Below the pieces are notes generated by a model. It did not search any database. It worked only from the letters and a program-made list of their open reading frames with translations, and had not been told where the DNA came from. From the NCBI GenBank assembly GCA_010672825.2, contig JAAHFU020000001.1, positions 1,426,001-1,490,000 on the forward strand: a DNA stretch of 64,000 nt. The letters run 5' to 3'. Shown here piece by piece: positions 31,258 to 45,246 of this stretch. Position 1 is the stretch's first letter; each line of letters opens with the position of its first letter. This stretch comes from Leptolyngbya sp. SIO1E4 (GTDB lineage: Bacteria; Cyanobacteriota; Cyanobacteriia; Phormidesmidales; Phormidesmidaceae). A program made the position numbers and the translations under genes.

Positions 31258-31545
31258 CTAAAGCCTTTCAGGGGCGTGGCCAATCATCCAAGGGCGGCTG
31301 CAATTTGAACTCTGGTTTTTTGCTTGAGATGTTTCTCGATTTTTTCTCGTAACCACTTTGGGCTCTTTTGAAGACTGGCGGCTAGCTGGAAAACGGCCAG
31401 AGTTCAAATTGATATTGGGCGGAGAAAACAGACGCTTAGCCGGTGACTCACAACTTGGACAGAGCATTGGCAACTTCAGCTCTGCCAGCTTGCGCCAGGC
31501 GTCGAAATCCCCACAGTCATCGCAACGGTAATCATAGAGCGGCAT
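31258..31545 (-). CDS. fmdB: FmdB-type zinc-ribbon protein
   Basis: A 95-residue protein starting MPLYDYRCDDCGDFDAWRKL, the FmdB/CxxC_CxxC_SSSS signature, with a second pair MLCPSCES. Later residues are basic and Ser/Lys-rich. FmdB is a putative regulator named from the formamidase gene cluster of Methylophilus. Here it lies 272 bp downstream of fmdA on the same strand, which is the same association. A start at 31686 would add 47 unrelated residues partly coming from repetitive DNA, so 31545 is used. The role in amide use is inferred. Confidence 0.87.
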   Translation of the reverse strand: MPLYDYRCDDCGDFDAWRKLAELKLPMLCPSCESPAKRLFSPPNINLNSGRFPASRQSSKEPKVVTRKNRETSQAKNQSSNCSRPWMIGHAPERL

Positions 31546-31817
31546 TCTGTAACGGCCTCCGGTGAAACATGGGGGATAGGGGAAAGTGTAAGGATAGAGG
31601 GTGAAGAGTGAAGGGTGTAGGCGCAGAGCGGCTTCCCGAAGGGTGGTCTCCACTGCTTCATCTCTTGACTGCTTCACCCTCTTCATAACTCCTGACTCAA
31701 AGCAGACTTCTCAGTTTATGGCAGTCGCCATTTAGATTGAGACATCTAGAAAGCTGTCTACCCCTTGCAGCCAGCATTTCATTTTGCCTTCTGCTTTTCG
31801 CCATAAGTGCGTAATCT

Positions 31818-33023
31818 CTAAGTCGGCAATATGTCCTTGTCAAAGATCTCGGTGGGCAGTGCCAACGTGCAACAGGCGTTGGGAATATCCACGATGCCAC
31901 TGATGCGACCTTCTACGGGGGCGCAGCTCAACAGCAGGTACGCTTGCTCGCCGGTATATCCAAACTTCTTCAGGTATTCGATCGCGTTGAGGCAAGCTTG
32001 TCGGTAAGCAATGTGTACATCCATGTAATACTGCTTGCCGCTAAACTCATCGACTGAAATCCCTTCAAACACCAGATATTCAGAATATTGAGGTTCAACA
32101 GGCCCCGGCTTAAAGATGGGATTCACCATCCCATACTTTTCCACACCTCCCTTGATGATGTCGACGTGCAGATCAATGTAGCCAGACATCTCGATCGCAC
32201 CACAGAAAGAAATTTCACCATCTCCCTGAGAAAAGTGAATATCCCCCATGGATAGCTTGGCCCCTTCTACATAGACCGGAAAGTAAATTCGCGTTCCTTT
32301 GGAGAGATTTTTGATATCGCAGTTGCCGCCATGTTCGCGAGGCGGGACCGTCCGGGCACCTTCAGCTGCGACTCGATCATATTCAGAAGCGGGCAGTGTC
32401 CCCAAAATGGCATTGGTCGGGTTAGGTAAGGCAGCTAGCACTGGCTGATCGCCCGATAGTCCAGCCCCATAGGTACGTAGATCCGGGGCGGTGGCTACTA
32501 GTTCCGCTTCTCGCTTATTCCATTTAGCCAACAGCTCATGGGAGGGTGCACATCCAATCAAGCCAGGGTGAGTGATGCCCGCAAATTTAACACCAGGAAT
32601 ATGACGCGATGAAGTATAAATCCCCTGTAGGTCCCAGATGGCCTTTGCCGCCTTTGGATAATGGTCGGTTAGAAACCCACCCCCATTATTCTTGGAAAAG
32701 ATACCGGTAAATCCCCATTCATCCCCTTGCAGCGCGCCAATATCCAACAGGTCAACGACTAAGATATCGCCAGGTTCAGCCCCATTGACGTGAATTGGCC
32801 CACTCAGAACGTGGACAACCGTTAGATCGACGTCTTCAATGTCTTTAGGATCATCGTTATTCTTGATCTGCCCGTCAGTCCAGTCTTTACATTCAATCCG
32901 AAAAACATCCCCAGGATTGACAGAAACCACGGCTGGAATATCGGGATGCCACCGATTATGGCCTGGCAACTCCTGCTCAGACATCGGCTTCGTTAGATCG
33001 ACTTCAAATAGTGTTTTAGGCAT
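31818..33023 (-). CDS. fmdA: Formamidase (FmdA/AmdA acetamidase-formamidase family)
   Basis: A 401-residue FmdA_AmdA enzyme that hydrolyses formamide to formate and ammonia. Visible family segments include GHNRWHPDIPAVVSVNPGD, VLSGPIHVNGAEPGDILVVD, THPGLIGCAPSHELL, REHGGNCDIKNL and LSMGDIHFSQGDGEISFCG. There is no signal peptide, so it is cytoplasmic. The RBS AAGGAG lies 8 bp before ATG 33023, deciding against the in-frame GTG at 33032. It follows the ABC importer genes by 73 bp, so it is part of their operon. This makes an amide (formamide) rather than only urea the likely transported substrate. Confidence 0.95.
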   Translation of the reverse strand: MPKTLFEVDLTKPMSEQELPGHNRWHPDIPAVVSVNPGDVFRIECKDWTDGQIKNNDDPKDIEDVDLTVVHVLSGPIHVNGAEPGDILVVDLLDIGALQGDEWGFTGIFSKNNGGGFLTDHYPKAAKAIWDLQGIYTSSRHIPGVKFAGITHPGLIGCAPSHELLAKWNKREAELVATAPDLRTYGAGLSGDQPVLAALPNPTNAILGTLPASEYDRVAAEGARTVPPREHGGNCDIKNLSKGTRIYFPVYVEGAKLSMGDIHFSQGDGEISFCGAIEMSGYIDLHVDIIKGGVEKYGMVNPIFKPGPVEPQYSEYLVFEGISVDEFSGKQYYMDVHIAYRQACLNAIEYLKKFGYTGEQAYLLLSCAPVEGRISGIVDIPNACCTLALPTEIFDKDILPT

Positions 33024-33096
33024 GATGCTCACTCCTTATCGATTCACCAAAGGTATCCACACAATCCACGTATTTGAGATGAGAAAACCTGTGACA

Positions 33097-33834
33097 TTAA
33101 ACCGCTAGATAACGATGTAATAAATCGTCCGTTAGCTGGTTGGTATGCCCTTTTTCAACGATCGCCCCTTTCTCCATGATGAAAAACGTCTGGGCCAGCT
33201 TTCGTGCAAATTCAATCTTCTGCTCCACCACAATGATGGTGATTCCTTTTTCTTGATTGATACGCCTTAGAGTCTCTTCAATCTCCTGCACAATCGAAGG
33301 TTGAATGCCTTCTGTAGGCTCATCCAGCAGCATAATTTTGGGATTACACATCAGCCCACGGGCGATCGCAAGCTGCTGCTGCTGTCCACCGCTGAGCAAC
33401 CCCCCTTGACGGCTTAAATGTTCAGACAACATGGGGAAGAAATCAAAGATTTCACTGGGAATTCGATTTCCTTTTTTGCCGCTCGCGACAAATCCCATTT
33501 TGAGATTATCTAGAACAGAGAGATAGGGAATAATCTCTCGCCCTTGAGGAATGTAAGCAATCCCTTGACGTGCCCGCTTAAAGGTTGGGGCCTTAGTAAT
33601 AACTCGACCATCGAACGCGATCGTTCCGGCGGTAGGCTGGTTGAGGCCGATAATATTCCGCAGCAGAGTTGTCTTACCCACCCCATTACGGCCCAATAAA
33701 CAGGCAATTTCTCCTCGATTAATCGCTAAGCTCACATCAAATAACACGGGCGTCTGACCATATCCCGATGTTATATTGTGCATCTCAAGCAGTGGCCCAG
33801 CAGCCCGATGATCTTCTTTCTCAAGCAGCGGCAT
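33097..33834 (-). CDS. urtE: Branched-chain-type ABC ATPase, UrtE-like (amide/urea importer)
   Basis: A 245-residue ATPase of the LivF/UrtE group. Walker A is LLGRNGVGKTT, signature LLSGGQQQQLAIARGL, and Walker B IMLLDEPTEGIQ. It energises import with the adjacent UrtD-like ATPase. The ATG at 33834 overlaps the urtD stop by 14 bp (ATGCCGCTGCTTGAG), which supports translational coupling; a GTG at 33846 is an alternative. The order binding protein, permease, permease, ATPase, ATPase is that of urtABCDE. The neighbouring formamidase suggests that this set is the FmdDEF-like amide version. Substrate specificity is inferred. Confidence 0.93.
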   Translation of the reverse strand: MPLLEKEDHRAAGPLLEMHNITSGYGQTPVLFDVSLAINRGEIACLLGRNGVGKTTLLRNIIGLNQPTAGTIAFDGRVITKAPTFKRARQGIAYIPQGREIIPYLSVLDNLKMGFVASGKKGNRIPSEIFDFFPMLSEHLSRQGGLLSGGQQQQLAIARGLMCNPKIMLLDEPTEGIQPSIVQEIEETLRRINQEKGITIIVVEQKIEFARKLAQTFFIMEKGAIVEKGHTNQLTDDLLHRYLAV

Positions 33835-34576
33835 TGATTGTTTCACGACCTAGATAAACCTCTATCACGTCAGGATTACTTTGAACCTCTTGAACAGACC
33901 CTTCTGCCAACACACTACCCTGGTGTAAAACGACAATGCGCTCAGCAATTTGTTTAACAAATTCCATATCATGCTCAATGACCACAACCGAATGAAATTG
34001 CGAAATACTCTGAATAATTTCACCCGTCATGTAGGTTTCTTTTGTGGTCATGCCAGCCGTGGGCTCATCTAACAAAACAATGGAAGGGTCTTGCGCGAGT
34101 ACCATGGCAATCTCTACCCATTGCTTTTGCCCATGTGAAAGGGAAGCGACTGGCTCAAAGGCCTGATCAATCAGAGCCGTTCTTTCTAGAACGTCGTAAA
34201 TCTTTCCTTTCTTGGCTTTAGTCAATTTAGCTGTGATGGAGGCCATAATCCCATGGGCACCCTTCAACGCCAAAAGGATATTTTCAAACACAGTGAGCTG
34301 ATTGTAGACATTAGGGTTTTGAAACTTGCGACCAATGCCCATGCGAGCAATCTCATGGGGAAGTTTGTTGGTGATCTCTTTACCGTGGTAGAAGACATGA
34401 CCCGATGCAATCAGAGACTTGCCGACAATGGCATCTAGCAGTGTGCTCTTCCCAGCTCCATTGGGGCCAATAATGGTGACAATCTCATTGTCATAGACGT
34501 CTAAATTAACGCCTTTTAGGGCTTTGAATCCCGAGAAAACAACGCTTAGATCCTTCACCGACAAAACTGGATTCAT
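33821..34576 (-). CDS. urtD: Branched-chain-type ABC ATPase, UrtD-like (amide/urea importer)
   Basis: A 251-residue ATPase of the LivG/UrtD group. Walker A is IIGPNGAGKSTLLDA, Walker B IVLLDEPTAGMT, and the signature is SLSHGQKQWVEIAMVL. LSHGQ instead of LSGGQ is typical of UrtD. The C-terminal tail EVQSNPDVIEVYLGRE is normal. The ATG at 34576 is 63 bp after the permease stop. It overlaps the urtE-like gene by 14 bp. It pairs with UrtE to power import. Confidence 0.93.
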   Translation of the reverse strand: MNPVLSVKDLSVVFSGFKALKGVNLDVYDNEIVTIIGPNGAGKSTLLDAIVGKSLIASGHVFYHGKEITNKLPHEIARMGIGRKFQNPNVYNQLTVFENILLALKGAHGIMASITAKLTKAKKGKIYDVLERTALIDQAFEPVASLSHGQKQWVEIAMVLAQDPSIVLLDEPTAGMTTKETYMTGEIIQSISQFHSVVVIEHDMEFVKQIAERIVVLHQGSVLAEGSVQEVQSNPDVIEVYLGRETINAAA

Positions 34577-34639
34577 TAATTAAGACCTCAGAAACCTAAC
34601 CGGAAAATTTGGTAGAAATGACTTGGAATACACCAATCT

Positions 34640-35752
34640 CTATGTCTCTTGGCCTTGCTGTGTCCGAGGTGGCAAGGGGGCTGGCTTAGACAAATTCGCC
34701 AAGTTGAAGCGCTGAGGTAGCAGACTCATTAATCCGTTAGGGATGAACAGCACCACCACCAAGAGAAGAATCCCCACAACCAACTGCCAATCCTGAGTGA
34801 CCCGTTCAGCGTAGTTTTGTACTTGGCCGAGTAAAATCGCGGCTAAAAGTGGGCCAATTAAGGTGCCCCGACCACCGATCGCAACCCAGATAACCACTTG
34901 AGTGCCAAAGGCAACGGCTAAATACACGGGAGAAATAAACCGGTTTAAGGGAACAAAAAGCCCCCCCGCCATTCCCGCTAATGCGGCAGATAATGTCCAA
35001 ATGAAAATCTTGTACTGGGCAACGTCATAGCCTAAAAACTGGATGCGCTTTTCATTTTCATTAATTGAGCGCAGAATTAGACCGAAATTTGATTGAGTCA
35101 GCCACCAGGCCAGCGCTAATACAAATGTGGTGTAAGCCAAAATCAGGAAATAAAGCCCTACGGGCGGAATCGGCGTCCCAAAGAAACTCAGCTTACTGAC
35201 ATCCGTAATGCCGTTTGTGCCGCCTGTATATGCCTGCTGACTCACGAAAAACGTGGTTAAAGCCGATGAAATCGCCAGCGTAATAATTGTGATATAAACG
35301 CCACTTACTTTGGAGTGGAAAATGAAGTATCCAATCACATAGGCAAAGACAGCTGGGACTGCAACGGTCGCAATTAGGGCAACTGGAAAATATTTTAGAG
35401 GCGCAATGAACCAGGGAAGCGCCTCTAAACCATTCCACACCATGAAGTCAGGAATTTCTCCGCCATAGGTATTCGAAGCAGAGGAAAGATTGAGTTTAAG
35501 GTAGTAAGCCGAAGCATAGCCCCCAAGGGTGAAGAAAACGCCGTGAGCAAAGCTCAAGATACCCGTAAATCCCCATACCAGATCCAATGAAATGCCCAGT
35601 GCACCAAACAGCAGCAGCTTAGACATCAATGAAAGCTGGAAATCGCCCATAACAAAAGGCAAAACCACAAAAATAAGTAAGCCTATGCCGCTGATTAAAA
35701 GTAGTCTCGTAGGAAACGTTGACTGTTTGTATCCCAGTACGATGTTAGCCAT
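34640..35752 (-). CDS. urtC: Branched-chain-type ABC permease, UrtC-like
   Basis: A ~370-residue inner-membrane permease of the LivM/UrtC type with about ten TM helices. The family loop is LLRSINENEKRIQFLGYDVAQY, and GGRGTLIGPLLAAILLGQVQNY is the conserved coupling segment. The insert SNTYGGEIPDFMVWNGLEALPW is typical of UrtC. The start may be the ATG at 35752 (MANIVLGYK) or a TTG at 35791; neither has a good RBS. It sits 60 bp or less behind the UrtB-like gene. The C-terminal tail is Pro/Gln-rich. Confidence 0.9.
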   Translation of the reverse strand: MANIVLGYKQSTFPTRLLLISGIGLLIFVVLPFVMGDFQLSLMSKLLLFGALGISLDLVWGFTGILSFAHGVFFTLGGYASAYYLKLNLSSASNTYGGEIPDFMVWNGLEALPWFIAPLKYFPVALIATVAVPAVFAYVIGYFIFHSKVSGVYITIITLAISSALTTFFVSQQAYTGGTNGITDVSKLSFFGTPIPPVGLYFLILAYTTFVLALAWWLTQSNFGLILRSINENEKRIQFLGYDVAQYKIFIWTLSAALAGMAGGLFVPLNRFISPVYLAVAFGTQVVIWVAIGGRGTLIGPLLAAILLGQVQNYAERVTQDWQLVVGILLLVVVLFIPNGLMSLLPQRFNLANLSKPAPLPPRTQQGQET

Positions 35753-35812
35753 GCCCAAAATCCCAGTTAGTCCCGATGATGCTGTGGTCAAGAATTATTG
35801 AAAAGACAGAAA

Positions 35813-36787
35813 CTAAGCACGTTTCTGTATAGTAAATAAGCCTTCAGGCCGATATCGAATCAGAACAATCACAGCGGCTAACACAAGCACTCTTGCTGAC
35901 GGATCATTGAGAAGAAAAGCGATGATAGCCTTAGACTCGCCAATCAAGAATGAGCCCGCCAGAATTCCAATGAGCTTATCGACGCCGCCTGTCACCACCA
36001 CCATCCAGGCATCCACTAAATAGTCTTGTCCCATCGGTGGAGCGACTGATTTAAGGGCTGAGATGACTGAACCAGCCACGCCTGCCAAGCCACATCCGTA
36101 AGCAAACGTTCCCATATCTATCAGCTTGGTGTTTACGCCCAAACACTTGGCGATATCTCGGTTTTGAGTCACAGCACGAATTTGACGTCCCCAAGAGGTG
36201 CCATAAAACAAGAACATGGTGAGTGCCAGCAGCGCTAACGCTACACAAATGATGAAAAGCCGATAGTAAGAAATTGCCACCAGCGGTGAACCAGCATCAT
36301 CCGCTAAAAACAGCAGGTTTCCAGATAAATAACCGGGTGACCTAACGTATTTCAACTCTGCCGTAAAGAGTAGTTTAATCACCCCTTGCAGTACGATGCT
36401 AAGTCCCCATGTTGCAAGCAATGTCTCTAAGGGGCGGCCATATAATCGACGAATAATCGTCAACTCTACAACCGCACCTACAATGGCTGTTCCGATAAAG
36501 GCAAAAGGGATTGTCATCAGCAAGTCCATTTTGAACATGTCTTGCATCAAAAAGGTGACATACGCCCCTAACATGATGAATTCACCATGGGCCAGGTTAA
36601 TAATGCGCATGACGCCAAAGGTGATGGCTAATCCCAAGCCTGTTAAGAGCAAAATACCAACGATACCAATGCCATTCAACGCCTGATTTAAGAGCGTCGC
36701 TACATTAAAGCCTGCAGCCGCTTCAGCTTCTTCTTGAGCAAGTAGAAAAAATGACGATACTGATAGGGACAATGCGACGTCCAACAT
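35813..36787 (-). CDS. urtB: Branched-chain-type ABC permease, UrtB-like
   Basis: A 324-residue LivH/UrtB-type permease. The N-terminal part carries AAAGFNVATLLNQALNGIG, then VMRIINLAHGEFIMLGAY, the family marker. RQIRAVTQNRDIAKCLGV is the loop contacting the ATPase, and LIGILAGSFLIGESKAI and VLAAVIVLIRYRPEGLF close the domain. Eight or more TM helices are seen. The start is ATG 36787 (a TTG at 36793 is in frame). It is followed by the UrtC-like gene and preceded by the binding-protein gene with a 160-bp gap. Confidence 0.92.
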   Translation of the reverse strand: MLDVALSLSVSSFFLLAQEEAEAAAGFNVATLLNQALNGIGIVGILLLTGLGLAITFGVMRIINLAHGEFIMLGAYVTFLMQDMFKMDLLMTIPFAFIGTAIVGAVVELTIIRRLYGRPLETLLATWGLSIVLQGVIKLLFTAELKYVRSPGYLSGNLLFLADDAGSPLVAISYYRLFIICVALALLALTMFLFYGTSWGRQIRAVTQNRDIAKCLGVNTKLIDMGTFAYGCGLAGVAGSVISALKSVAPPMGQDYLVDAWMVVVTGGVDKLIGILAGSFLIGESKAIIAFLLNDPSARVLVLAAVIVLIRYRPEGLFTIQKRA

Positions 36788-36947
36788 GATCAAAATGAAC
36801 TCTGTAAGTGTGGACTAGGACGTATTTTCCAAAGTGGGAAGTTATGCCTGAGGGGAGCAGATGGTGGGGAATAGGGAGAAAGGAATAGGGTGCTTTTGTT
36901 CCCTGTCACCTGTCCCCTTCTTCTCCCCATCTCTCCAAATCTCATAA

Positions 36948-38312
36948 CTAGAGGAACTGAGGCTCCAGGTCTTTGCCTGTTTCTTTGGTGGGATCTGTGC
37001 GATCGTCTGGTGTCGGATGGACGCAGACACGACCTTTGTAAAGGGCCTGACTCCAGGCAATGGGCTTCACGGCGGCATCTGTCGCAAATACGATGTCGGC
37101 CTGACCATCTTCTCGCCAGCGACCAATTCGAGAGTAGAGATAGGTGTGGTAATTGTCGGGGTCAAGTTTCACCCGTCCCTGAGGTGCCTGAAACTCTTGC
37201 CCACGGGTAGCTTCCCTGAGAGTGGCCGTATTAATCTCATCACCCGCTTCTAAGACATCCCTCATGGCCTGAGCCATGAAGAACGTTTGCAGATAAGCAG
37301 CTTCCATCACGCCATTGGTGACGCGATCGCCCCCAAACATCTCCTTAAACTGCTCTACAAATGCCTGATTCTCCGGCGTATCTACCGTTTGGAAATAGTT
37401 GAAGCTGGTGTAGTGACCGGCTGAGAATTCAGGCCCCATGGCTTGGATTTCTTCTTCCGTCGTGGGGTAAGCCATGATAGGGATATCGTCTGCAGTAATC
37501 CCGGCGTCTTTAAACTGGCGATAAAAAGCGGGAATACTGTCGCCGACTAGATTACTCAATACAAAATCAGGTCTAGCGGCCTTGATCTTATTGATGATGG
37601 TAATGAATTCGGTTGTCCCTAAAGCGGCATATTCATCGCCAACAACTTCACCTCCAGCCTTTTCCAATTCTGCTCTGGCAATGCGGTTGCTTTCTTTGGG
37701 ATAAATGTAGTCAGATCCGATAAAGAAGCCCTTTGGCCCAAAATTTTCGTAGCAGTAAGGAATGGAGTCTGTAATCTGCTGATTGGGAGCTGCCCCGGTG
37801 TAGAAAACATTGGAGCTGCATTCGTTCCCTTCGTAGTACACCGGGTAGTAGAGGAGGGAATCTTTTTCTTCAAATACCGGCAGTACAGACTTTCGGCTGG
37901 CTGAGGTGTAACAGCCAAGAACACAAACAACCTGATCCTCATCAATGAGGCGCTTAGACATCTGGTTGTAAAGATCCCAGTCTGAGTTTGGGTTAACAAC
38001 CACCTTTTGAATCTTGCGCCCTGCGATGCCTTCACCATTGCCTTCCCAAGGGCCGGTGCCAGTGTTGATCTGCTCGATCGCGAGGAAAGTTGCATCCTGC
38101 AGCGACTTTTCAACAATCGCGATCGTCCCTGTTGTGGAATACATCACCCCAACCTTGATTGGATTCTCTCCTAGGTCGGCGGCATCGTCAGATCCGGCTC
38201 CCCCGGAAGTAGCCGTACCGCTACAAGCCGCAGCAACACCGGCTCCCACCGCTAGGGAGCCATATTGAAGAAACTTACGACGACTCGTCTTGCCGATAAA
38301 TTTATTCCGCAT
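36948..38312 (-). CDS. urtA: ABC substrate-binding lipoprotein, UrtA/FmdD-like (short-chain amide or urea)
   Basis: A 454-residue periplasmic binding protein of the Peripla_BP_5 family. The N-terminus has a twin-arginine motif (TSRRKFLQYGS) and a probable lipobox ending VAAAC30, so it is likely a Tat-exported lipoprotein. Core motifs are IKVGVMYSTTGTIAIVEKS, VLGCYTSASRKSVLPVFEE and NVFYTGAAPNQQI. The QSYWP-like segment is LLYYPVYYEGNEC. An insert, GPWEGNGEGIAGRKI, sets it apart from plain cyanobacterial UrtA. Because formamidase follows in the operon, I infer that it binds short amides, perhaps also urea. It is related to AmiC, the amide sensor of Pseudomonas. Confidence 0.92.
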   Translation of the reverse strand: MRNKFIGKTSRRKFLQYGSLAVGAGVAAACSGTATSGGAGSDDAADLGENPIKVGVMYSTTGTIAIVEKSLQDATFLAIEQINTGTGPWEGNGEGIAGRKIQKVVVNPNSDWDLYNQMSKRLIDEDQVVCVLGCYTSASRKSVLPVFEEKDSLLYYPVYYEGNECSSNVFYTGAAPNQQITDSIPYCYENFGPKGFFIGSDYIYPKESNRIARAELEKAGGEVVGDEYAALGTTEFITIINKIKAARPDFVLSNLVGDSIPAFYRQFKDAGITADDIPIMAYPTTEEEIQAMGPEFSAGHYTSFNYFQTVDTPENQAFVEQFKEMFGGDRVTNGVMEAAYLQTFFMAQAMRDVLEAGDEINTATLREATRGQEFQAPQGRVKLDPDNYHTYLYSRIGRWREDGQADIVFATDAAVKPIAWSQALYKGRVCVHPTPDDRTDPTKETGKDLEPQFL

Positions 38313-38705
38313 CTGTTACTTCCTGACCTCTACTAAGACAACTCAAACGCGTACTCAGCCGATACTTAAAAAGCGAGTGAGATCTTCCTCTCACATCTCA
38401 ATCCAGAAACCATGAAAACTAGCTTTTTCAAAGCACATCAAACTTGTAGGCACATCAGCTTGTGAGCAGCCATGCCTACACTGGTTGCACGCCTAAATTT
38501 ACGCGCACAGAACTAGTCGCCAACACCTAGACACGACTCACCAACATCACAGAATTAGTGACTGCGTCAAAAGAGTCTTATCGAGTCAAAATTATCTTCA
38601 GGAAGATGAAATCTGATAATATCTAAACTCTTCCATGACCAATAATCTGACTGCTTAAGATCAGCAGGTGTGTTTGACGTTTACTCCTGAATTTCAATTT
38701 CAATT

Positions 38706-38763
38706 CGTGAGCGAACTCACGAGAACACCCTGAATTAAATTCTGGGGTTTGACGGGGTGTTCT
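38706..38763. other. Tandem hairpins in the leader of the amide importer operon
   Basis: Two inverted repeats: CGTGAG-CGAA-CTCACG (38706-38721) and AGAACACCC (38722-38730) with GGGGTGTTCT (38754-38763). On the minus-strand transcript predicted from the -10 at 38773-38778, the outer hairpin would lie at the very 5' end. They could stabilise the mRNA or be attenuator elements. Confidence 0.5.
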
Positions 38764-38772
38764 TGTGTGGAA

Positions 38773-38814
38773 ATCATAGGGGAGGATTTTAATAGGATTT
38801 GTATGCTTCAATAC
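38773..38814 (-). promoter_or_regulatory. NtcA-type promoter for the amide importer operon (minus strand)
   Basis: The box GTATTGAAGCATAC (GTA-N8-TAC, 38814 to 38801 on the minus strand) is followed by 22 bp and then TATGAT (38778-38773), matching TAN3T. This is the canonical layout of an NtcA-activated cyanobacterial promoter. The first gene (binding protein) starts ~455 bp downstream of the expected start site, leaving a long structured leader. Confidence 0.72.
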
Positions 38815-38840
38815 TAAACTGTTAACCAGTTAACTAGTTT
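38801..38840 (+). promoter_or_regulatory. NtcA-type promoter for the sensor kinase operon, with overlapping palindrome
   Basis: The same NtcA box GTATGCTTCAATAC (38801-38814) read on the plus strand is followed after 20 bp by TAGTTT (38835-38840), a TAN3T -10. Between them, AAACT-GTTAAC-CA-GTTAAC-T-AGTTT (38816-38840) is a near-perfect palindrome covering the spacer and the -10. A repressor bound there, for example the MarR-type response regulator, would block this promoter. Confidence 0.65.
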
Positions 38841-39034
38841 TACCTACACTAGCTCCGCTGTGTCTCTGGGTGACCGGAGGTGCCATCTTGCAGCATCCAA
38901 GCAACTGGGTAAGGAGAGATTGCTACCTGAATGCATCCATTGATTCAGTTATGGAGACATTCAACTGTCATCGTTATTTGAAACGACGACACGCATGACA
39001 GCTCGATCTATTTTTTCATTTGGAAGTCAAGGCT

Positions 39035-41845
39035 ATGACAGGTCAGGCACATTCCAAAATTGTTGAGGCCAGACGAGATTACAACACCTGGGTAGCGTCA
39101 GAAACCCTAGAAGACTATGCTCTGCGGTTTGCCCCTAAATCGTTTCGTAAATGGCCGGAATGGTTAGTGGCAAACACCGCTGCAGGGGGGCTGTCATTCC
39201 TGGCCTTGGAGGCGATCGGCGGTTCGCTAGTGACAAACTACGGGTTTGCTAACTCTTTCTGGGCCATTATCGTCGTCGGCATCATTATTTTTCTAACGAG
39301 TCTACCCATTTCCTATTACGCCTCTAAGTACAGCGTTGATATTGATTTGCTGACCCGTGGGGCAGGCTTTGGTTACATTGGCTCAACCATTACCTCCCTG
39401 ATTTATGCCTCATTTACGTTTATATTTTTTGCCCTAGAAGCGGCCATCATGGCCCAGGCTCTGGAGCTGTACTTTCATCTTGCTCTGTGGATTGGCTACA
39501 TTATCTGTTCTTTGATCATCATTCCATTAGTGTTTTTTGGAATGACACTGATTAACCGGCTACAGCTCTGGACTCAACCAATTTGGCTGATTTTACAGGT
39601 CTTGCCCTATGTGTTCATCCTGTACAAGGAACCGAGCGCGTTCTCGAATTGGATTCATTTTTCTGGAGAATTTAGCAGCGACCATGGCTTTGATCCGCTC
39701 CTGTTTGGTGTGGCTGCGACCGTTTCCTTCTCGCTGATTGCCCAGATTGGGGAACAGGTCGACTACCTAAGATTTTTGCCTGACCCTGAGGGCAAGAACC
39801 CAATTAAATGGTGGCTAGCCGTCATTTTGGCAGGCCCCGGCTGGATTATTTTTGGGTGTGTTAAGCAGCTAGGGGGGGCTTTTCTAGCAACGCTGGTAGT
39901 AGATCATGGGATTAGCCTGGCAAAAGCCAATGAACCCACCAACATGTATCGCATTGGATTTGAGTATGTATTCTCTAATCCAGAGATGGCGCTGGCGATA
40001 ACGGTTTTATTCGTGATTCTTTCCCAGGTGAAAATTAACGTCACCAATGCCTATGCGGGGTCTCTAGCCTGGTCGAACTTTTTTTCGCGATTGACCCATA
40101 GCCATCCAGGGCGGGTGGTTTGGCTCGTGTTCAATGTTGCGATCGCCCTCATGATGATGGAGTTGGGTGTCTTCTCGACGTTGGAAGCGGTGTTAGGGCT
40201 GTATTCCAATGTGGCGATCGCCTGGGTCGGTGCGCTCGTGGCCGATTTGATTATCAACAAACCCCTGGGGTTAAGTCCGCCCCACATTGAGTTCAAACGG
40301 GCGCATCTCTACAACATTAATCCGGTGGGTGTGGGCTCCACGTTAATTGCATCCCTGGTGGCGATGGCGGCCTTCGTGGGGATTTTTGGGGCCGTTGCGA
40401 AAGCCTTTGCCTCCTTCATTGCGCTGGGACTGGCGCTACTGCTGGCACCCGCGATCGCCTTCATTACTCAAGGCAGATACTACATCGCCCGGGAATCACC
40501 AACACTTACCAGCTCAGCTTCTGAGTTGATTCAATGCTGCATCTGTCGGCAAACTTACGAACCTCAGGACATGGCCGCCTGCCCCGTGTATGATGATGCC
40601 ATTTGCTCTCTGTGTTGTACCTTGGATGCCCGCTGCGACGATGTCTGTAAACACACTGCCCCAGACAGCCACACGCTATGTCCTGAGGAGACGCCATCCA
40701 TTGCCAAGGGAGTCTTCCAGACTAAGCTCTCACCCCAATTAGGAACAAGACTGCTGCGCTTTCTCCTGATAGTCCTACCGCTATCTAGCTTGGTAGGGGC
40801 TGCTCTCGGCTGCATCTACTATCAGCAAGTGACCTCAGTCCCTGATCTGACGGACATCACGGCGCAGCGGCTGACAGCAACCCTGGTAGAAGTCTACGCC
40901 GTTTTCTTCGTGCTGATTGCCATTGGCGCCTGGTGGCTCGTTTTAACCCAAGAAAGTCGTCAACTGGCCCAGGATGAACTGGATAAGCAAAATTTGCAGC
41001 TGCAACAGGAAGTGAAAGAGCGGCAGCTAGCCGAAACTCAGCTCCATGAAAAGACCCAGCAGCTGGAACAAACCCTGGACAGCTTACGCCAGGCGGAGGA
41101 TCAGCTCATTCAAACAGAAAAAATGGCCGCGCTGGGCCGACTAGTGGCGGGCATTGCCCACGAGATCAATACCCCCATTGGCATCGGCGTCACCGCAACC
41201 TCCCTGTTGGTGGAGAAAACCAATGCATTTTCACGCCTGTTCAAACAGGCTTCGATTAAGCGGTCTGATTTAGACAAGTTTTTGGCCACTGCCCAGCAAA
41301 GCAGTGAGATCGCCCTGAAAAACCTTGAACGCGCCGCCGGGCTGATTCAAAGCTTTAAACAGGTGGCCGTGGATCAATCCAGTGAATCCAAGCGTATCTT
41401 CAATGTCAAATCCTATCTAGAAGAGATTCTCTTACAGCTCAGCCCCAAGCTGAAAGCAGCCCAGCATACGGTCATCATCCAGGGAAATGCCGATCTTAGC
41501 CTCAACAGTTATCCCGGTGCTTTTTCCCAGATTGTGACGAATTTAGTCATGAACTCTATCCTCCATGCCTACACGACAGAGGATAAAGGAAAGCTCACCG
41601 TCGACTTTCGCCGAAGTAACCATCAGCTCATCATCGTCTATACCGATGATGGCAGCGGTATCCCTCCAGAAAACCTGGGCAAAATCTTCGAGCCTTTCTT
41701 CACCACCAAGCGAGGGCAAGGGGGCAGCGGTTTAGGACTACACATTGTCTATAACCTCGTGACCCGCAAGCTAAGAGGAACCATCCGCTGTAAAAGTCGG
41801 TTGGGGGAGGGCACTCAGTTTACAATTGTCCTACCCCTAACCTGA
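39035..41845 (+). CDS. NCS1-type permease-histidine kinase fusion protein
   Basis: A 936-residue protein. Residues ~1-490 form a polytopic domain like NCS1 nucleobase/cytosine permeases (e.g. AFWAIIVVGIIIFLTSLPI region; VSFSLIAQIGEQVDYLRF; KINVTNAYAGSLAWSNFFSR). Residues 501-538 carry nine cysteines (QCCICRQTY ... ICSLCCTLDARCDDVCK), a likely metal site. Then come two TM helices, a coiled coil (~630-685) and a kinase module: H-box LVAGIAHEINTPIG with H709, N-box TNLVMNSILHAY, G-boxes DDGSGIPP and GQGGSGLGLHIV. It probably senses an amide or nitrogen compound through the permease part and phosphorylates the next gene's product. A TTG at 39020 is an alternative start. The permease-kinase fusion resembles CbrA in concept but with another transporter class. 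Confidence 0.9.
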   Translation: MTGQAHSKIVEARRDYNTWVASETLEDYALRFAPKSFRKWPEWLVANTAAGGLSFLALEAIGGSLVTNYGFANSFWAIIVVGIIIFLTSLPISYYASKYSVDIDLLTRGAGFGYIGSTITSLIYASFTFIFFALEAAIMAQALELYFHLALWIGYIICSLIIIPLVFFGMTLINRLQLWTQPIWLILQVLPYVFILYKEPSAFSNWIHFSGEFSSDHGFDPLLFGVAATVSFSLIAQIGEQVDYLRFLPDPEGKNPIKWWLAVILAGPGWIIFGCVKQLGGAFLATLVVDHGISLAKANEPTNMYRIGFEYVFSNPEMALAITVLFVILSQVKINVTNAYAGSLAWSNFFSRLTHSHPGRVVWLVFNVAIALMMMELGVFSTLEAVLGLYSNVAIAWVGALVADLIINKPLGLSPPHIEFKRAHLYNINPVGVGSTLIASLVAMAAFVGIFGAVAKAFASFIALGLALLLAPAIAFITQGRYYIARESPTLTSSASELIQCCICRQTYEPQDMAACPVYDDAICSLCCTLDARCDDVCKHTAPDSHTLCPEETPSIAKGVFQTKLSPQLGTRLLRFLLIVLPLSSLVGAALGCIYYQQVTSVPDLTDITAQRLTATLVEVYAVFFVLIAIGAWWLVLTQESRQLAQDELDKQNLQLQQEVKERQLAETQLHEKTQQLEQTLDSLRQAEDQLIQTEKMAALGRLVAGIAHEINTPIGIGVTATSLLVEKTNAFSRLFKQASIKRSDLDKFLATAQQSSEIALKNLERAAGLIQSFKQVAVDQSSESKRIFNVKSYLEEILLQLSPKLKAAQHTVIIQGNADLSLNSYPGAFSQIVTNLVMNSILHAYTTEDKGKLTVDFRRSNHQLIIVYTDDGSGIPPENLGKIFEPFFTTKRGQGGSGLGLHIVYNLVTRKLRGTIRCKSRLGEGTQFTIVLPLT

Positions 41846-41894
41846 TTCCATCAACCCGCGCCCGCATCAGTCAGACTGTGGTTGTGGCTTAGTT

Positions 41895-43073
41895 ATGTCA
41901 GAGCATATGCAAGATTCTTTATCCCAGCCTGAGGATGAACAGGCCAAGGTGGCTTTTGAGGATGACGAAATTCAGTTTGCCGAAGAAACCGAAACTGATC
42001 ACCCGGAAAAGAGCTGGAAAATTCTCATCGTAGATGATGAAGCCGAAGTCCACGACATTACAAAACTAGCTCTGAGTGACGTTACCTTCGAAGAGCGATC
42101 GCTAACGTTTCTCAGTGCCTATTCCGCTGAAGAAGCCAAGCAAATTGTGCAGGCCAACCCTGACATCGCCATCATTTTTCTAGATGTAGTGATGGAAACT
42201 GACGATGCAGGTCTGCAACTGATTGACTACATTCGGGAAGATCTGGGCAACTTGACGACCAGAATTATTCTGCGCACGGGGCAGCCCGGTCAGGCGCCCG
42301 AAGATATTGTGGCCGTCAATTACGGCATCAATGACTATAAAACCAAGACTGAGCTCACCGCTCGCAAGCTTTTTATTACGGTCATTACGGCTCTCAGAAC
42401 TTTCTCGACCATCATACAGATGCTGGAGGTCAGCCAACGATTGGAGCTGCAGCTCACTCAGGATAAACAATCTGATGAAGTTCATGAACAGGAAAAAATC
42501 CGTCAGCTAGAGCGGAAGCTCCAATCGCTCCAAAGTCATCTGTCTCAGCCAAACCAGCGCCAGCAGCCAGAGGCCACTGAACAGCTCGCTGCGATCGCAG
42601 CTGCACCAGATGCCAGTACTTCTAGTGCAACAGGCACCCTACACACGATGTCGATGGTGGCGCGAATTGCCCGCATGGTCCTGCGGATTATGGATGGGCA
42701 GTCAACTCGCCTGGGCCTCTCACAATCTAAGCTAGCGGTTTTGATGTATCTGAGCGGCGAACCAGACTTATGTGCCAGTCCTTCCACTTTGGCGAAGCAC
42801 TGTGGCGTGTCGCGAGCCGCCATGACGGGCCTACTCGATGGTCTGGAAAAGGAAGACTATGTCGAACGAGACAGCCACCCCTCCGATCGCCGCGCACTCA
42901 GGGTAAAACTTACATCGTCAGGACGACAGTTCTTAGAGCAAATTGCACCCCAGCAGTATCAAATGTCTGAGCTGATGGAGGCTCTGGATGCCACTGAACG
43001 GCAGACACTGATTGAGCTAATCATGAAGTTCATTCGTCTACTGGATAATCAACCAGACCCCATTGAAGACTAG
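41895..43073 (+). CDS. Response regulator with MarR-type output domain
   Basis: A 392-residue protein. An acidic N-terminus (~1-40) leads to a receiver domain (~41-170): acidic pair D47-D48 (LIVDDEAEVHD), phosphoacceptor D97 (IIFLDVVM), ILRTGQPG and the conserved Lys region YKTKTE. A coiled coil (~180-235, RKLQSLQSHLSQ) connects to a MarR winged helix (~250-385) with QSKLAVLMYLSGEP, the recognition helix VSRAAMTGLLDGLEKEDYV and wing RDSHPSDRRALRVKL. REC-MarR fusions are rare. It lies 49 bp after the kinase gene, so it is its cognate partner. It probably regulates the amide genes by binding palindromes such as 38816-38840 (inferred). Confidence 0.92.
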   Translation: MSEHMQDSLSQPEDEQAKVAFEDDEIQFAEETETDHPEKSWKILIVDDEAEVHDITKLALSDVTFEERSLTFLSAYSAEEAKQIVQANPDIAIIFLDVVMETDDAGLQLIDYIREDLGNLTTRIILRTGQPGQAPEDIVAVNYGINDYKTKTELTARKLFITVITALRTFSTIIQMLEVSQRLELQLTQDKQSDEVHEQEKIRQLERKLQSLQSHLSQPNQRQQPEATEQLAAIAAAPDASTSSATGTLHTMSMVARIARMVLRIMDGQSTRLGLSQSKLAVLMYLSGEPDLCASPSTLAKHCGVSRAAMTGLLDGLEKEDYVERDSHPSDRRALRVKLTSSGRQFLEQIAPQQYQMSELMEALDATERQTLIELIMKFIRLLDNQPDPIED

Positions 43074-43129
43074 GCGATACACAGCGGCGTCTTCATAGTC
43101 GTATGCCCCTGCTAAACGAGCATGTTTGC

Positions 43130-43552
43130 GTTCAGCAAAGCACACCCCAGACCCCAAACCCTAGACCCCTTAGACCCTAGGGCTGATTCATTCCACAGAG
43201 AAAACCACCTTAAGGGGCTACTGAGACGACTAACCTCGGCCAAACGTCCAATCACGCCACCAATCGTCCGCTGGAACCAACCGCTCAATCCGTCTCACGG
43301 TTCCCTCCTGTCTGCGAGGTCCAGGACGGCAGAACGTCCTGGTCGTCAGAGTCTGAGGGCAGCGAAATGCCCTCAGGTCATCCCCTGATACCAGAGCAGA
43401 CTCTTCGCCTTACCGCCTTCACCAGAAGTGTTATCCACCTTCCTTGGTAACGTCAACGCGATTTCCTCTCAGCAGAGAATCAACCCTACCCTTAGACCCT
43501 GTCTCAACCTGTACCGCGCTCAACTGAAAAAGACGCTAGATCAGCCGCCTCA
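43130..43552 (+). repeat. Dispersed repeat family A, interrupted copy 6
   Basis: A degenerate family A copy split in two: the left half 43130-43178 (CAAAGCACACCCCAGACCCC) and the right half 43489-43552 (CTTAGACCCTGTCTCAACC, CTCAACTGAAAAAGACGC). A complete family B element (43178-43488) sits in between, flanked by an exact 11-bp duplication. Confidence 0.82.
43178..43488 (-). repeat. Dispersed repeat family B (MITE-like), copy 2
   Basis: A 311-bp inverse copy with ends TAGGGCTGATTC (43178-43189) and GAATCAACCCTA (43477-43488), and perfect 11-bp direct repeats CCCTTAGACCC at 43167-43177 and 43489-43499. Hairpins are at 43321-43342 and 43353-43376. Relative to copy 1, the 9-bp stem has two paired (compensatory) changes while the TTTCGC loop is kept. 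Confidence 0.9.
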
Positions 43553-43592
43553 AACCAGTTAAGCGATAAATAGTTAAGAACTTAATTTTCTG

Positions 43593-43634
43593 GTAGGGAC
43601 GGATACAAATTCACGGGAGTTCATTGCCTAACAT
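43593..43634 (+). promoter_or_regulatory. NtcA-type promoter upstream of amiE
   Basis: GTAGGGACGGATAC (43593-43606, GTA-N8-TAC), then exactly 22 bp, then TAACAT (43629-43634, TAN3T). The spacing is canonical for NtcA activation. The predicted start near 43641 gives a ~517-nt leader to amiE containing a strong hairpin. A GTG-started open frame (43641-43856) lies at the start of this leader, but I cannot support it as a gene. Confidence 0.7.
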
Positions 43635-44021
43635 TTACCTGTGACGGATCAAAATCTTGAATTTGAGAGATCTTTCATCCACAAAAACCAAAGTCAGCGA
43701 TCGCCAGCTCATATCAGCAGTTATGAGCTTAGTAAAGGGGTATCGCTGTTCTTTGAAAGCGCTGAAATAAGGCAGCGCCTAGTCTTGTTCACATCACAGA
43801 GTTTTGGTTCCAGGTTGTTTAAACTGCTTGCTGTTTTGGGGTTCTACAGCAACTGAAGCGGTTTTAATGCCCTGGCAAAGCGGTTCGCCTGAATTATACG
43901 AGGCGCATTGATCTGTGGTTTGCAATTGTTGTGTTGCCCAGGCGAATGTTTGTTGACATCCACCTAGGCAAGAGAAATGGATTGGTTAGAGGAAATGCGT
44001 GACCGGCTGGGTTGAGTCAGG

Positions 44022-44069
44022 CTGAAGCTTATTGTCAGCGGGGTAAGACCTGCTGACAATAAGCTTCAG
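44022..44069 (+). other. Perfect 18-bp stem-loop in the amiE leader
   Basis: CTGAAGCTTATTGTCAGC (44022-44039), a 12-nt loop, then its exact reverse complement (44052-44069). It lies 88 bp before the amiE start. No T-run follows, so it is not a simple terminator. It could act as an mRNA-stability or antitermination element, or as a protein-binding palindrome. Confidence 0.6.
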
Positions 44070-44157
44070 GTCGGAGAGTTAGACAACAATTGCTGAGTAC
44101 TAGGGCGCTGAAAGATGCATTTAGCTTATTGAGATTGTGAAAAGTTAGAGGTGAATC

Positions 44158-45246
44158 ATGGCTTATCATGGCGATATTTCATCAAGTGCAGATGCCGTTG
44201 GCGTCGCCGTTGTTAACTACAAAATGCCACGCCTACATACCAGGGCAGAGGTGATTGAAAACTGTAAGAATATTGCCTCCATGATTGATGGAATGAAGGT
44301 AGGTTTACCGGGGATGGATCTCGTCATCTTTCCTGAATATTCCACCCATGGCATTATGTACGACCATCAAGAAATGATGGAAACGGCATCAGATATCCCA
44401 GGCCCAGAAACCGAAATCTTTGCGGAAGCCTGCATTCGCAATAAAACTTGGGGGGTCTTTTCCTTAACAGGTGAAAAGCATGAGGCTCATCCTCATAAGG
44501 TGCCTTACAACACGCTGATCTTGATGAATGATCAGGGTGAGATTGTGCAAAAGTACCGCAAAATTATGCCGTGGTGCCCGATTGAAGGGTGGTATCCCGG
44601 TGGCTGTACCTATGTGTCTGAAGGCCCGAAGGGGCTAAAGATTAGCCTCATCATTTGCGACGATGGCAACTACCCCGAAATCTGGCGAGACTGTGCCATG
44701 AAGGGAGCCGAACTCATTGTCCGTTGTCAGGGGTATATGTATCCCTCGAAGGAGCAACAAGTTGTGGTTTCCAAAGCCATGGCCTGGATGAACAACACCT
44801 ATGTCGCCGTTGCCAATGCCACTGGTTTTGATGGGGTCTACAGCTACTTTGGTCACTCTGCTCTGGTCGGCTTCGACGGACGCACCCTAGGGGAATGTGG
44901 TGAAGAAGAGAATGGGGTGCAGTATGCGGCCCTTTCTAAGTTTGCCATCCGCGATTTCCGTAAGAACGCCCAATCTCAAAATCACCTGTTCAAACTGCTG
45001 CATCGGGGCTACACCGGCACTGGTAAATCAGACGATGGCTTCGACGGAATGCAAGAGTGCCCCTATGACTTTTATCGGGAATGGGTGCTTGATCCTCAAA
45101 AGGCAAAGGAGCGTGCAGAAGCGCTGACCCGCTCAACCGCTGGTACCGAAGAATGCCCCATTGAAGGTCTGCCCAACAAGCCCCAAACGCCTGTCCCAGT
45201 GAGCAAGCCCCAAACGCCAACCGTTCAGGTTTCAGTCAAAGGTTAG
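44158..45246 (+). CDS. amiE: Aliphatic amidase (acylamide amidohydrolase)
   Basis: A 362-residue nitrilase-superfamily amidase very like Pseudomonas AmiE. The N-terminus is [19 protein letters not shown], and the Glu-Lys-Cys triad is E60 (FPEYS), K135 (YRKIMPWCP) and C167 ([13 protein letters not shown]). It hydrolyses short aliphatic amides such as acetamide and propionamide to the acid plus ammonia. [19 protein letters not shown] and [12 protein letters not shown] are also diagnostic. The tail after ~330 is Pro/Gln/Val rich ([13 protein letters not shown]) and longer than in Pseudomonas. It is placed ~1.1 kb after the response regulator, behind its own NtcA-like promoter. With FmdA it completes an amide-to-ammonia route. 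Confidence 0.96.

Follow-up and report, generated by a model that had tools for sequence, protein, structure and literature searches.

The window analysed here is a stretch of 64,000 nucleotides from the cyanobacterium Leptolyngbya sp. SIO1E4 (contig JAAHFU020000001.1, positions 1,426,001 to 1,490,000). Its island at 31,258–45,246, in which genes for a Urt-type ATP-binding cassette (ABC) importer, the formamidase FmdA and FmdB diverge from those for a transporter-like sensor histidine kinase, a REC-MarR response regulator and the aliphatic amidase AmiE, is most probably one amide-nitrogen acquisition system with its own sensor (rough probability 0.8). A preliminary description of the sequence had proposed such a single system. 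The proposal is supported by the substrate pocket of UrtA, by the genes to which the sensor is linked in other genomes, and by a second urt cluster in the same genome.

Under nitrogen limitation, NtcA would activate two promoters, those of urtABCDE-fmdA-fmdB and amiE. The ABC importer would take up short-chain amides (formamide, acetamide and similar compounds) and not mainly urea, and FmdA and AmiE would hydrolyse the imported amides, releasing ammonia along with formate or other carboxylates. The divergent kinase would sense the amide, or the amide group generally, through a module with the fold of NCS1 transporters. This module is connected by a Cys-rich stretch and another membrane segment to the histidine kinase, which would signal to the REC-MarR regulator; the GTTAA-N4-TTAAC palindromes next to the NtcA boxes are the probable sites at which this regulator acts. 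The ligand of the sensor, the direction of regulation, the action of NtcA, the operator and any transport by the sensor module are matters that we infer.

The substrate pocket of UrtA

As described in the sections of PMC10392092 available to us, Gln144 and Asn246 of Prochlorococcus UrtA hydrogen-bond the urea nitrogens, Asn246 is positioned by Trp120, and eight pocket residues are termed strictly conserved by the authors. The aligned pocket columns of the island UrtA carry the changes W120Y, Q144Y, F192Y, N246V and S274P. Its score also lies below the curated cut-off of the urea family; UrtB, UrtC, UrtD and UrtE all score above theirs. The loss of the two amine-binding residues would fit a ligand with one amine, compared with the two of urea. 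The amide-binding protein AmiC is homologous to the island UrtA and shares Tyr120, Tyr192 and Val246 with it. The combination of Tyr144 and Val246 was found in the island UrtA and in four relatives (L051, L162, L174 and L176).

We read the pocket in all 55 urtA-matching loci among 80 loci of a genome collection. These 80 are the top-ranking ones among 581 or more stretches matching the sensor module; they are interrelated, and counts over them are not independent. Phe144 and Val246 were present in UrtA at every locus with fmdA in view (36/36), as well as at six fmdA-bearing plasmid loci. Two of the 36 encode a second UrtA as well: that of L078 is Gln/Asn, that of L104 Gln/Val. A Phe/Val UrtA without fmdA in view occurs at eight further collection loci, of which six end at contig ends and the other two, L069 and L076, are visible over ~10 kb. 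Gln144 occurs at 10 of the 55 loci, none with fmdA in view and some of them short; nine have Asn246, and L108 is incomplete at that position. The remaining locus, L051, has the Tyr/Val pair of the window. UrtA of the Gln/Asn type is also encoded on two Rhizobium plasmids without fmdA in view, and the second UrtA of the island's own genome retains Gln/Asn. Among cyanobacteria, five Gln/Asn urt clusters (L160, L161, L163, L168 and L177) lie near fmdA on the opposite strand, so that the type of UrtA cannot be read from proximity to fmdA by itself; the window-type urt cluster of L176 is likewise placed opposite the fmdA strand. The mixed Gln144/Val246 pocket of L104, from Azospirillum, is possibly an intermediate.

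In a tree of 46 UrtA sequences rooted on AmiC, the proteobacterial amide type and the urea UrtA of cyanobacteria formed one group (support 1.0), to which the window type did not belong. By this topology, the UrtA of amide-type importers falls into two separate lineages.

Genes beside the sensor

Loci with at least 8 kb on either side of the sensor gene were treated as well flanked (53 of the 80). In this set, fmdA lies near the sensor at 32 loci, a urtA match at 41 and amiE at 13. Sorted into classes, 33 loci have fmdA or amiE, eight have urt genes only, six have urease genes without fmdA (one with a urtA match) and six have none of these; over all 80 loci, many of which end at contig ends, the same classes number 38, 17, 6 and 19. 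The kinase had been linked to the amidases beforehand, and its homologues do adjoin fmdA or amiE at those 33 of 53 loci. At four fmdA loci (L063, L064, L089 and L118), urease genes are in view too. An annotated fmdA-urtEDCBA cluster divergent from kinase and regulator is found in Paraburkholderia, Burkholderia vietnamiensis, Azospirillum, Chelatococcus and Rhodobacteraceae SC52. A Klebsiella plasmid has the same divergent layout, with no regulator listed directly downstream in its incomplete gene table. On a Klebsiella pneumoniae IncFIB plasmid (L182), formamidase, urt genes and sensor kinase occur together. The two Rhizobium plasmids have urt genes beside the sensor and fmdA not in view. Family sensor kinases divergent from urease gene clusters were seen at L111, L113, L114, L117, L119 and L120.

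Some loci weigh against the amide reading. L069 and L076, both from Pseudomonas, have an amide-type urtA and neither fmdA nor amiE within ~10 kb. In L104 the second UrtA, Gln144/Val246, adjoins fmdA, and the pocket rule is not perfectly clean. At six burkholderial loci the sensor stands with urease and without fmdA, so that it may respond to urea or to a more general cue. Finally, fmdA, amiE, urtA and urease genes are in view at none of 18 cyanobacterial loci (several of them short) whose kinases share a core that we call K2, so the presence of the sensor is not sufficient to infer amides. These 18 (L039–L050, L052–L054, L056, L058 and L059) comprise 12 loci from the search of the phylum and six from the collection; two of them show merely 25–29% matches to ABC ATPases.

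It is improbable that the island encodes an ordinary urea importer and a urea-sensing kinase to which the amidases are merely neighbours. Such a system would account for the scores of UrtB–UrtE above the urea-family cut-offs, for the sensor adjoining urease at 6 of 53 loci, and for its position beside urea-type UrtA in the two Rhizobium plasmids and 10 collection loci. The island UrtA, however, scores below the urea cut-off and is without the residues that bind the urea nitrogens, and the genome (8.2 Mb in 12 contigs) has a separate urea-type urt cluster at C1:74 kb, adjoined by a ureF-like gene (35% identity). The preliminary description had itself raised a urea-only importer with urease encoded elsewhere. 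A single urease alpha gene does exist outside the island, but it is the second urt cluster that keeps Gln/Asn, and the island UrtA has lost them. On the pocket and the second cluster, the urea-only system was set aside in favour of an amide importer.

The sensor module

The AlphaFold2 model of kinase residues 1–660 has a mean predicted local distance difference test score of 81. Compared with solved structures, the sensor part of the model matched CodB with Z 32.9 (397 aligned residues, 3.7 Å, 16% identity) and Mhp1 with Z 25–28, the next listed structure having 23.8. At the level of sequence the resemblance is weak. The profile of the sensor matched that of CodB with an hhalign probability of 39.7% (E 3e-4), and a search of its sequence against solved structures gave two weak matches alone, the best with E 0.12. 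Residues 1–500 had no NCBIfam match at E up to 10, and residues 1–627 matched no NCS1 model in Pfam at E up to 10, the sole match being a spurious-looking MotA_ExbB (E 0.26). Two homologues without a kinase likewise had no Pfam match at E up to 1. On the structural comparison, the sensor module models as an NCS1 (CodB/Mhp1) transporter fold.

The kinase has the domain order transporter-like module, Cys-rich segment, further membrane segment and kinase core. The Cys-rich segment is also present in a kinase-less homologue from Methylovirgula and partially in one from Streptomyces. Eight Cys residues following a transporter-like domain could form a metal site.

The sensor module was detected in 13 of 386 cyanobacterial genomes, with 72–77% identity to the 12 other cyanobacterial homologues and 61–79% to the 80 best collection loci. 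It also matched 532 plasmid records, 342 of them from Klebsiella; in the listed records the sensor kinase is often annotated merely as ‘ATP-binding protein’. For 44 genomes, reached via 44 of the 80 loci, all listed matches are of fusion length (frames of 963–1360 residues). The Methylovirgula homologue (549 residues, with the same Cys-rich tail) has fmdA, fmdB, a family kinase and an aliphatic amidase as neighbours, and no urt genes within the 19 kb seen. A homologue of 548 residues in Acinetobacter is divergent from a family kinase, with none of the amide genes of the island recognised nearby. The Streptomyces homologue (46% identity) is annotated as an allantoin permease, with no amide genes annotated nearby. 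Of these kinase-less homologues, those at L184:8986-10635 (beside amidase genes) and L217:8908-10554 (divergent from a family kinase) are annotated as hypothetical or left unannotated.

Kinase cores and partner regulators

The kinase has a C-terminal HATPase match and a weak HisKA match (E 0.0014). Among 94 sequences, three were without the marker motif and three were too short; the other 88 cores were clustered at a bit-score ratio of 0.35. The resulting groups hold 61 cores from Proteobacteria, 18 from cyanobacteria (K2) and three (window, L051 and L055), with six singletons. In the largest group, L060 and L103 were scanned, and both proved to be hybrid kinases ending in a REC domain. The core of the window is 67–74% identical to those of L055 and L051, and 27–31% identical to the compared members of the second group. 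The one detector thus occurs with three or more strongly divergent kinase cores, three being the safe number because each singleton is one sequence. The sensor tree places the 21 cyanobacterial sequences in a single group (support only 0.34), with the window trio inside it (support 0.94). Since the trio nests within the cyanobacterial sensors, the kinase core was most likely exchanged within cyanobacteria.

The neighbouring regulators differ as well. In both the window and L051, the regulator next to the kinase is a REC-MarR protein (59% identity). No other full-length REC-MarR match was seen in a non-exhaustive scoring of four candidates per genome. In Proteobacteria the neighbour is a regulator of the LuxR family, as judged from 24 aligned downstream proteins with the helix-turn-helix recognised by eye and as annotated at the Burkholderia vietnamiensis locus; in L072 it is of the sigma-54 activator type. 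The 504-residue neighbour in L055 was rejected as a REC-MarR protein, as it consists of REC and a histidine kinase. The neighbour of ~1122 residues in L093 and L103 is not urea carboxylase, being DUF2126/transglutaminase in L103. An equation of the regulator REC with the C-terminal REC of the proteobacterial hybrid kinases was dropped, as the match was weak (best E 7e-5).

The kinase might instead read a general nitrogen or membrane signal and have been recruited to several nitrogen operons. We regard this as rather unlikely, though it is the alternative to which we give most weight. The 18 K2-core homologues with no amide, urt or urease genes in view (18/18) speak for it, as does the variation of kinase cores and neighbouring regulators among the sensor homologues. 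Against this, the sensor module has stayed conserved, at the identities given above, while the cores differ, and its kinase-less form in Methylovirgula sits with amidases. Both observations are more simply explained by a small-molecule site that has been conserved.

Extending the amide-sensing reading from the island to its homologues, we tentatively suggest, at a little under even odds, that these kinases constitute an unrecognised family of transceptors. Each would comprise an amide/urea permease of NCS1 fold that ends in a Cys-rich tail, is well conserved between phyla and has repeatedly been joined to different kinase cores and regulators. The family would sense, and perhaps transport, urea and short-chain amides, and its association with FmdA and an ABC amide importer would have arisen on two or more independent occasions.

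Candidate control elements

The NtcA consensus is a GTA-N8-TAC box with a −10 box 20–24 nt downstream. Boxes of this type with predicted −10 boxes precede urtA and amiE in the window (Table 1), and L051 has the same arrangement at both genes, with 22 nt in each case. Each of the four oriented motifs in the two species was met in 0.4–0.8% of dinucleotide shuffles. Two of the four boxes also have a motif in the reverse direction, towards the kinase in the window and away from amiE in L051. The box alone is unenriched in the window (7 vs 4.9 expected). By motif, the urtA and amiE promoters appear to be NtcA-type, and NtcA presumably acts at them. A point against this is that the full motif was present in only 3 of 28 other cyanobacterial regions upstream of fmdA or urtA (0.21 expected), one of them at the urtA of L174.

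The palindrome GTTAA-N4-TTAAC lies beside both NtcA boxes of the window, which has one other site with one mismatch in its 64 kb. L051 has an exact copy in the amiE spacer and a copy with one mismatch inside the urt genes; the palindrome is absent from the urtA spacer of L051, which counts against the proposed scheme. We take this palindrome to be a candidate site at which the REC-MarR regulator acts.

The hairpin in the amiE leader has a stability z of −5.3 and was not seen in the aligned leader of L051. It was rejected as an intrinsic terminator, being absent from the list of the terminator scan and having no visible T run. No Rfam RNA matched at the gathering score in 38200–44200.

Distribution across cyanobacteria

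FmdA was detected in 27 of the 386 cyanobacterial genomes (E up to 1e-60) and AmiE in three (E up to 1e-80), all three with fmdA near window-type urt genes. The surroundings of fmdA in 20 of the 26 other FmdA-bearing genomes comprised three window-type urt clusters, five classical urt clusters and 12 cases in which no urt was found. The contig of L051 stops within the urt genes, and fmdA downstream of them is not visible there. Without requiring linkage, fmdA occurs in 8 of 13 sensor genomes vs 19 of 373 others (p 2e-7). Counted by genus, which controls relatedness only in part, the figures are 5/9 vs 10/134 (p 6e-4), with p 0.003 when the genus of the window is excluded. The genome of the window has two more FmdA-family genes (G000:C7:169008-170120 and G000:C2:355062-356018), one of them a much weaker match to the family.

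The gene order and divergent layout match those of the proteobacterial cluster, as would be the case if the island were a recent transfer from there. This origin is very improbable. The island FmdA is 79–92% identical to those of the 26 other FmdA-bearing cyanobacterial genomes, but 58–66% to those of 35 of the 36 collection loci (71% to the fragment in L126). Its UrtA belongs to a lineage separate from the proteobacterial amide type, the sensor groups with cyanobacterial sensors (at the weak support of 0.34), and the kinase core and regulator differ from the proteobacterial ones. On FmdA, UrtA, sensor, kinase core and regulator together, we set aside a recent acquisition of the complete island from Proteobacteria.

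Layout of the island

All ten genes named in the preliminary description were found by family models and open reading frames: five importer genes of the Urt/Fmd type, formamidase and FmdB on a single strand, and transporter-kinase, REC-MarR regulator and amiE on the opposite one (Table 1). The order on the minus strand is urtA-urtB-urtC-urtD-urtE-fmdA-fmdB, with urtD and urtE overlapping. On the plus strand, the regulator gene starts 49 bp past the kinase gene, and amiE lies 1084 bp downstream of the regulator gene with its own predicted promoter. Glu60, Lys135 and Cys167 of AmiE are those we take to be the catalytic Glu/Lys/Cys.

Table 1. Genes, domains and candidate control elements of the island (positions in the window; a point in the strand column stands for no strand).
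Feature	Position	Strand	Remarks
FmdB-type zinc-ribbon protein	31258–31686	−	Domain at residues 48–95; likely start Met48 of the listed open reading frame, near 31545
FmdA formamidase	31818–33032	−	NF045496, 681.3 bits (cut-off 500)
UrtE-like ABC ATPase	33097–33846	−	TIGR03410, 311.5 (cut-off 285.8)
UrtD-like ABC ATPase	33821–34576	−	TIGR03411, 322 (cut-off 304.1); overlaps urtE
UrtC-like permease	34640–35791	−	TIGR03408, 314.1 (cut-off 296.2)
UrtB-like permease	35813–36793	−	TIGR03409, 328.2 (cut-off 250.3)
UrtA-like substrate-binding protein, changed urea pocket	36948–38312	−	TIGR03407, 417.8 bits, below cut-off of 492.75
Predicted −10 box TATGAT, urt-fmd promoter	38773–38778	−	22 nt from NtcA box
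NtcA-type box GTATGCTTCAATAC, urtA/kinase spacer	38801–38814	.	−10-like box on kinase side too
Palindrome GTTAACCAGTTAAC, candidate REC-MarR operator	38821–38834	.	Putative
Sensor histidine kinase, predicted NCS1 fold, 941 residues	39020–41845	+	ATG at 39035 is probable start
Transporter-like sensor module	39125–40489	+	~Residues 36–490 of kinase (~480 residues)
Cys-rich segment, eight Cys (C506–C543)	40526–40654	+	Invariant in 39 aligned sequences
Kinase core, H box and HATPase	41087–41845	+	Among 88 cores, groups with L051 and L055 only
REC-MarR response regulator, 392 residues	41895–43073	+	REC and MarR domain matches
Second palindrome copy, beside amiE NtcA box	43573–43586	.	1 mismatch; exact in L051
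NtcA-type box GTAGGGACGGATAC facing amiE	43593–43606	+	
Predicted −10 box TAACAT of amiE	43629–43634	+	22 nt from NtcA box
Long near-perfect hairpin, amiE leader	44022–44069	.	21-nt arms; single in 8.2 Mb genome
AmiE aliphatic amidase	44158–45246	+	NF009802, 699.7 bits (cut-off 427); Glu60, Lys135, Cys167 in place

Comparison with known systems

In Methylophilus, the fmd genes encode a formamidase with the FmdDEF importer and FmdB, as in the island; we know of no transporter-type kinase among them. In Pseudomonas, AmiC and AmiR provide amide-responsive control of amiE. AmiC is the homologue of the island UrtA noted above, whereas the island regulator combines REC and MarR and is not an RNA-binding antiterminator of the AmiR type. 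The preliminary description had held the control to be unlike that by AmiC/AmiR, which agrees with this regulator and with a membrane kinase as the presumed sensor.

An association of urt genes with fmdA and amiE, with an amide rather than urea as the substrate, was proposed in 2010 for blr0968–0973 of Bradyrhizobium, in the part of PMC3098086 available to us; that part names no kinase, and no search was aimed at one. According to the available part of PMC13209695, Pseudomonas veronii Yu15, which has such a cluster and also a second amidase operon, grows on acetamide and formamide. The terms ‘histidine kinase’ and ‘two-component’ have no occurrence in the main text of PMC13209695. The importer and hydrolase set of the island is like that of the urtABCDE-fmdA-amiE clusters of Bradyrhizobium and Pseudomonas veronii, but its UrtA is of the Tyr/Val type, from the other lineage, and theirs is Phe/Val.

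Our literature search, which covered little subscription content and did not target the pocket rule, returned no paper on NCS1-fold kinases or their links to amide and urea genes. ‘Amidase’ and ‘formamid’ do not occur in the review of cyanobacterial urea use PMC6737895, nor ‘urea’, ‘nucleobase’ and ‘amide’ in the CbrA preprint PMC13022988. To the extent of this search, the enzymes, the urt-fmdA-amiE clusters and the SLC5 transporter-kinases are already known, and the NCS1-fold sensor family is apparently new. If the proposal is correct, a likely class of ligand could be assigned to a sensor kinase family that is widespread, with at least 581 stretches of one genome collection matching it. The transporter-kinase receptors known so far would gain a second transporter fold, and the family would offer a natural series in which several kinases carry one detector. 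Gln144 and Asn246 would likewise give a two-residue rule separating amide from urea importers, both of which are now named UrtA.

The closest known receptors are the SLC5-STAC transceptor kinases CbrA, CrbS and RpuS, described in the available parts of PMC13022988 and PMC9100948 as histidine kinases that carry a LeuT-fold transporter and control the use of a nutrient. The island kinase, as modelled, would share this plan of a LeuT-fold transporter with a histidine kinase. No SLC5 model was among its Pfam matches, and no STAC match was obtained in Pfam at E up to 10, the presence of a STAC model in the library being unconfirmed. The modelled fold is nearest to NCS1 (CodB, Z 32.9), with SLC5 members about 10 Z units lower (the choline transporter CHT1, Z 22.4). 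Unlike the SLC5-STAC kinases, the island kinase has a Cys-rich segment after its transporter domain, and its gene is linked to those for the use of amides and urea.

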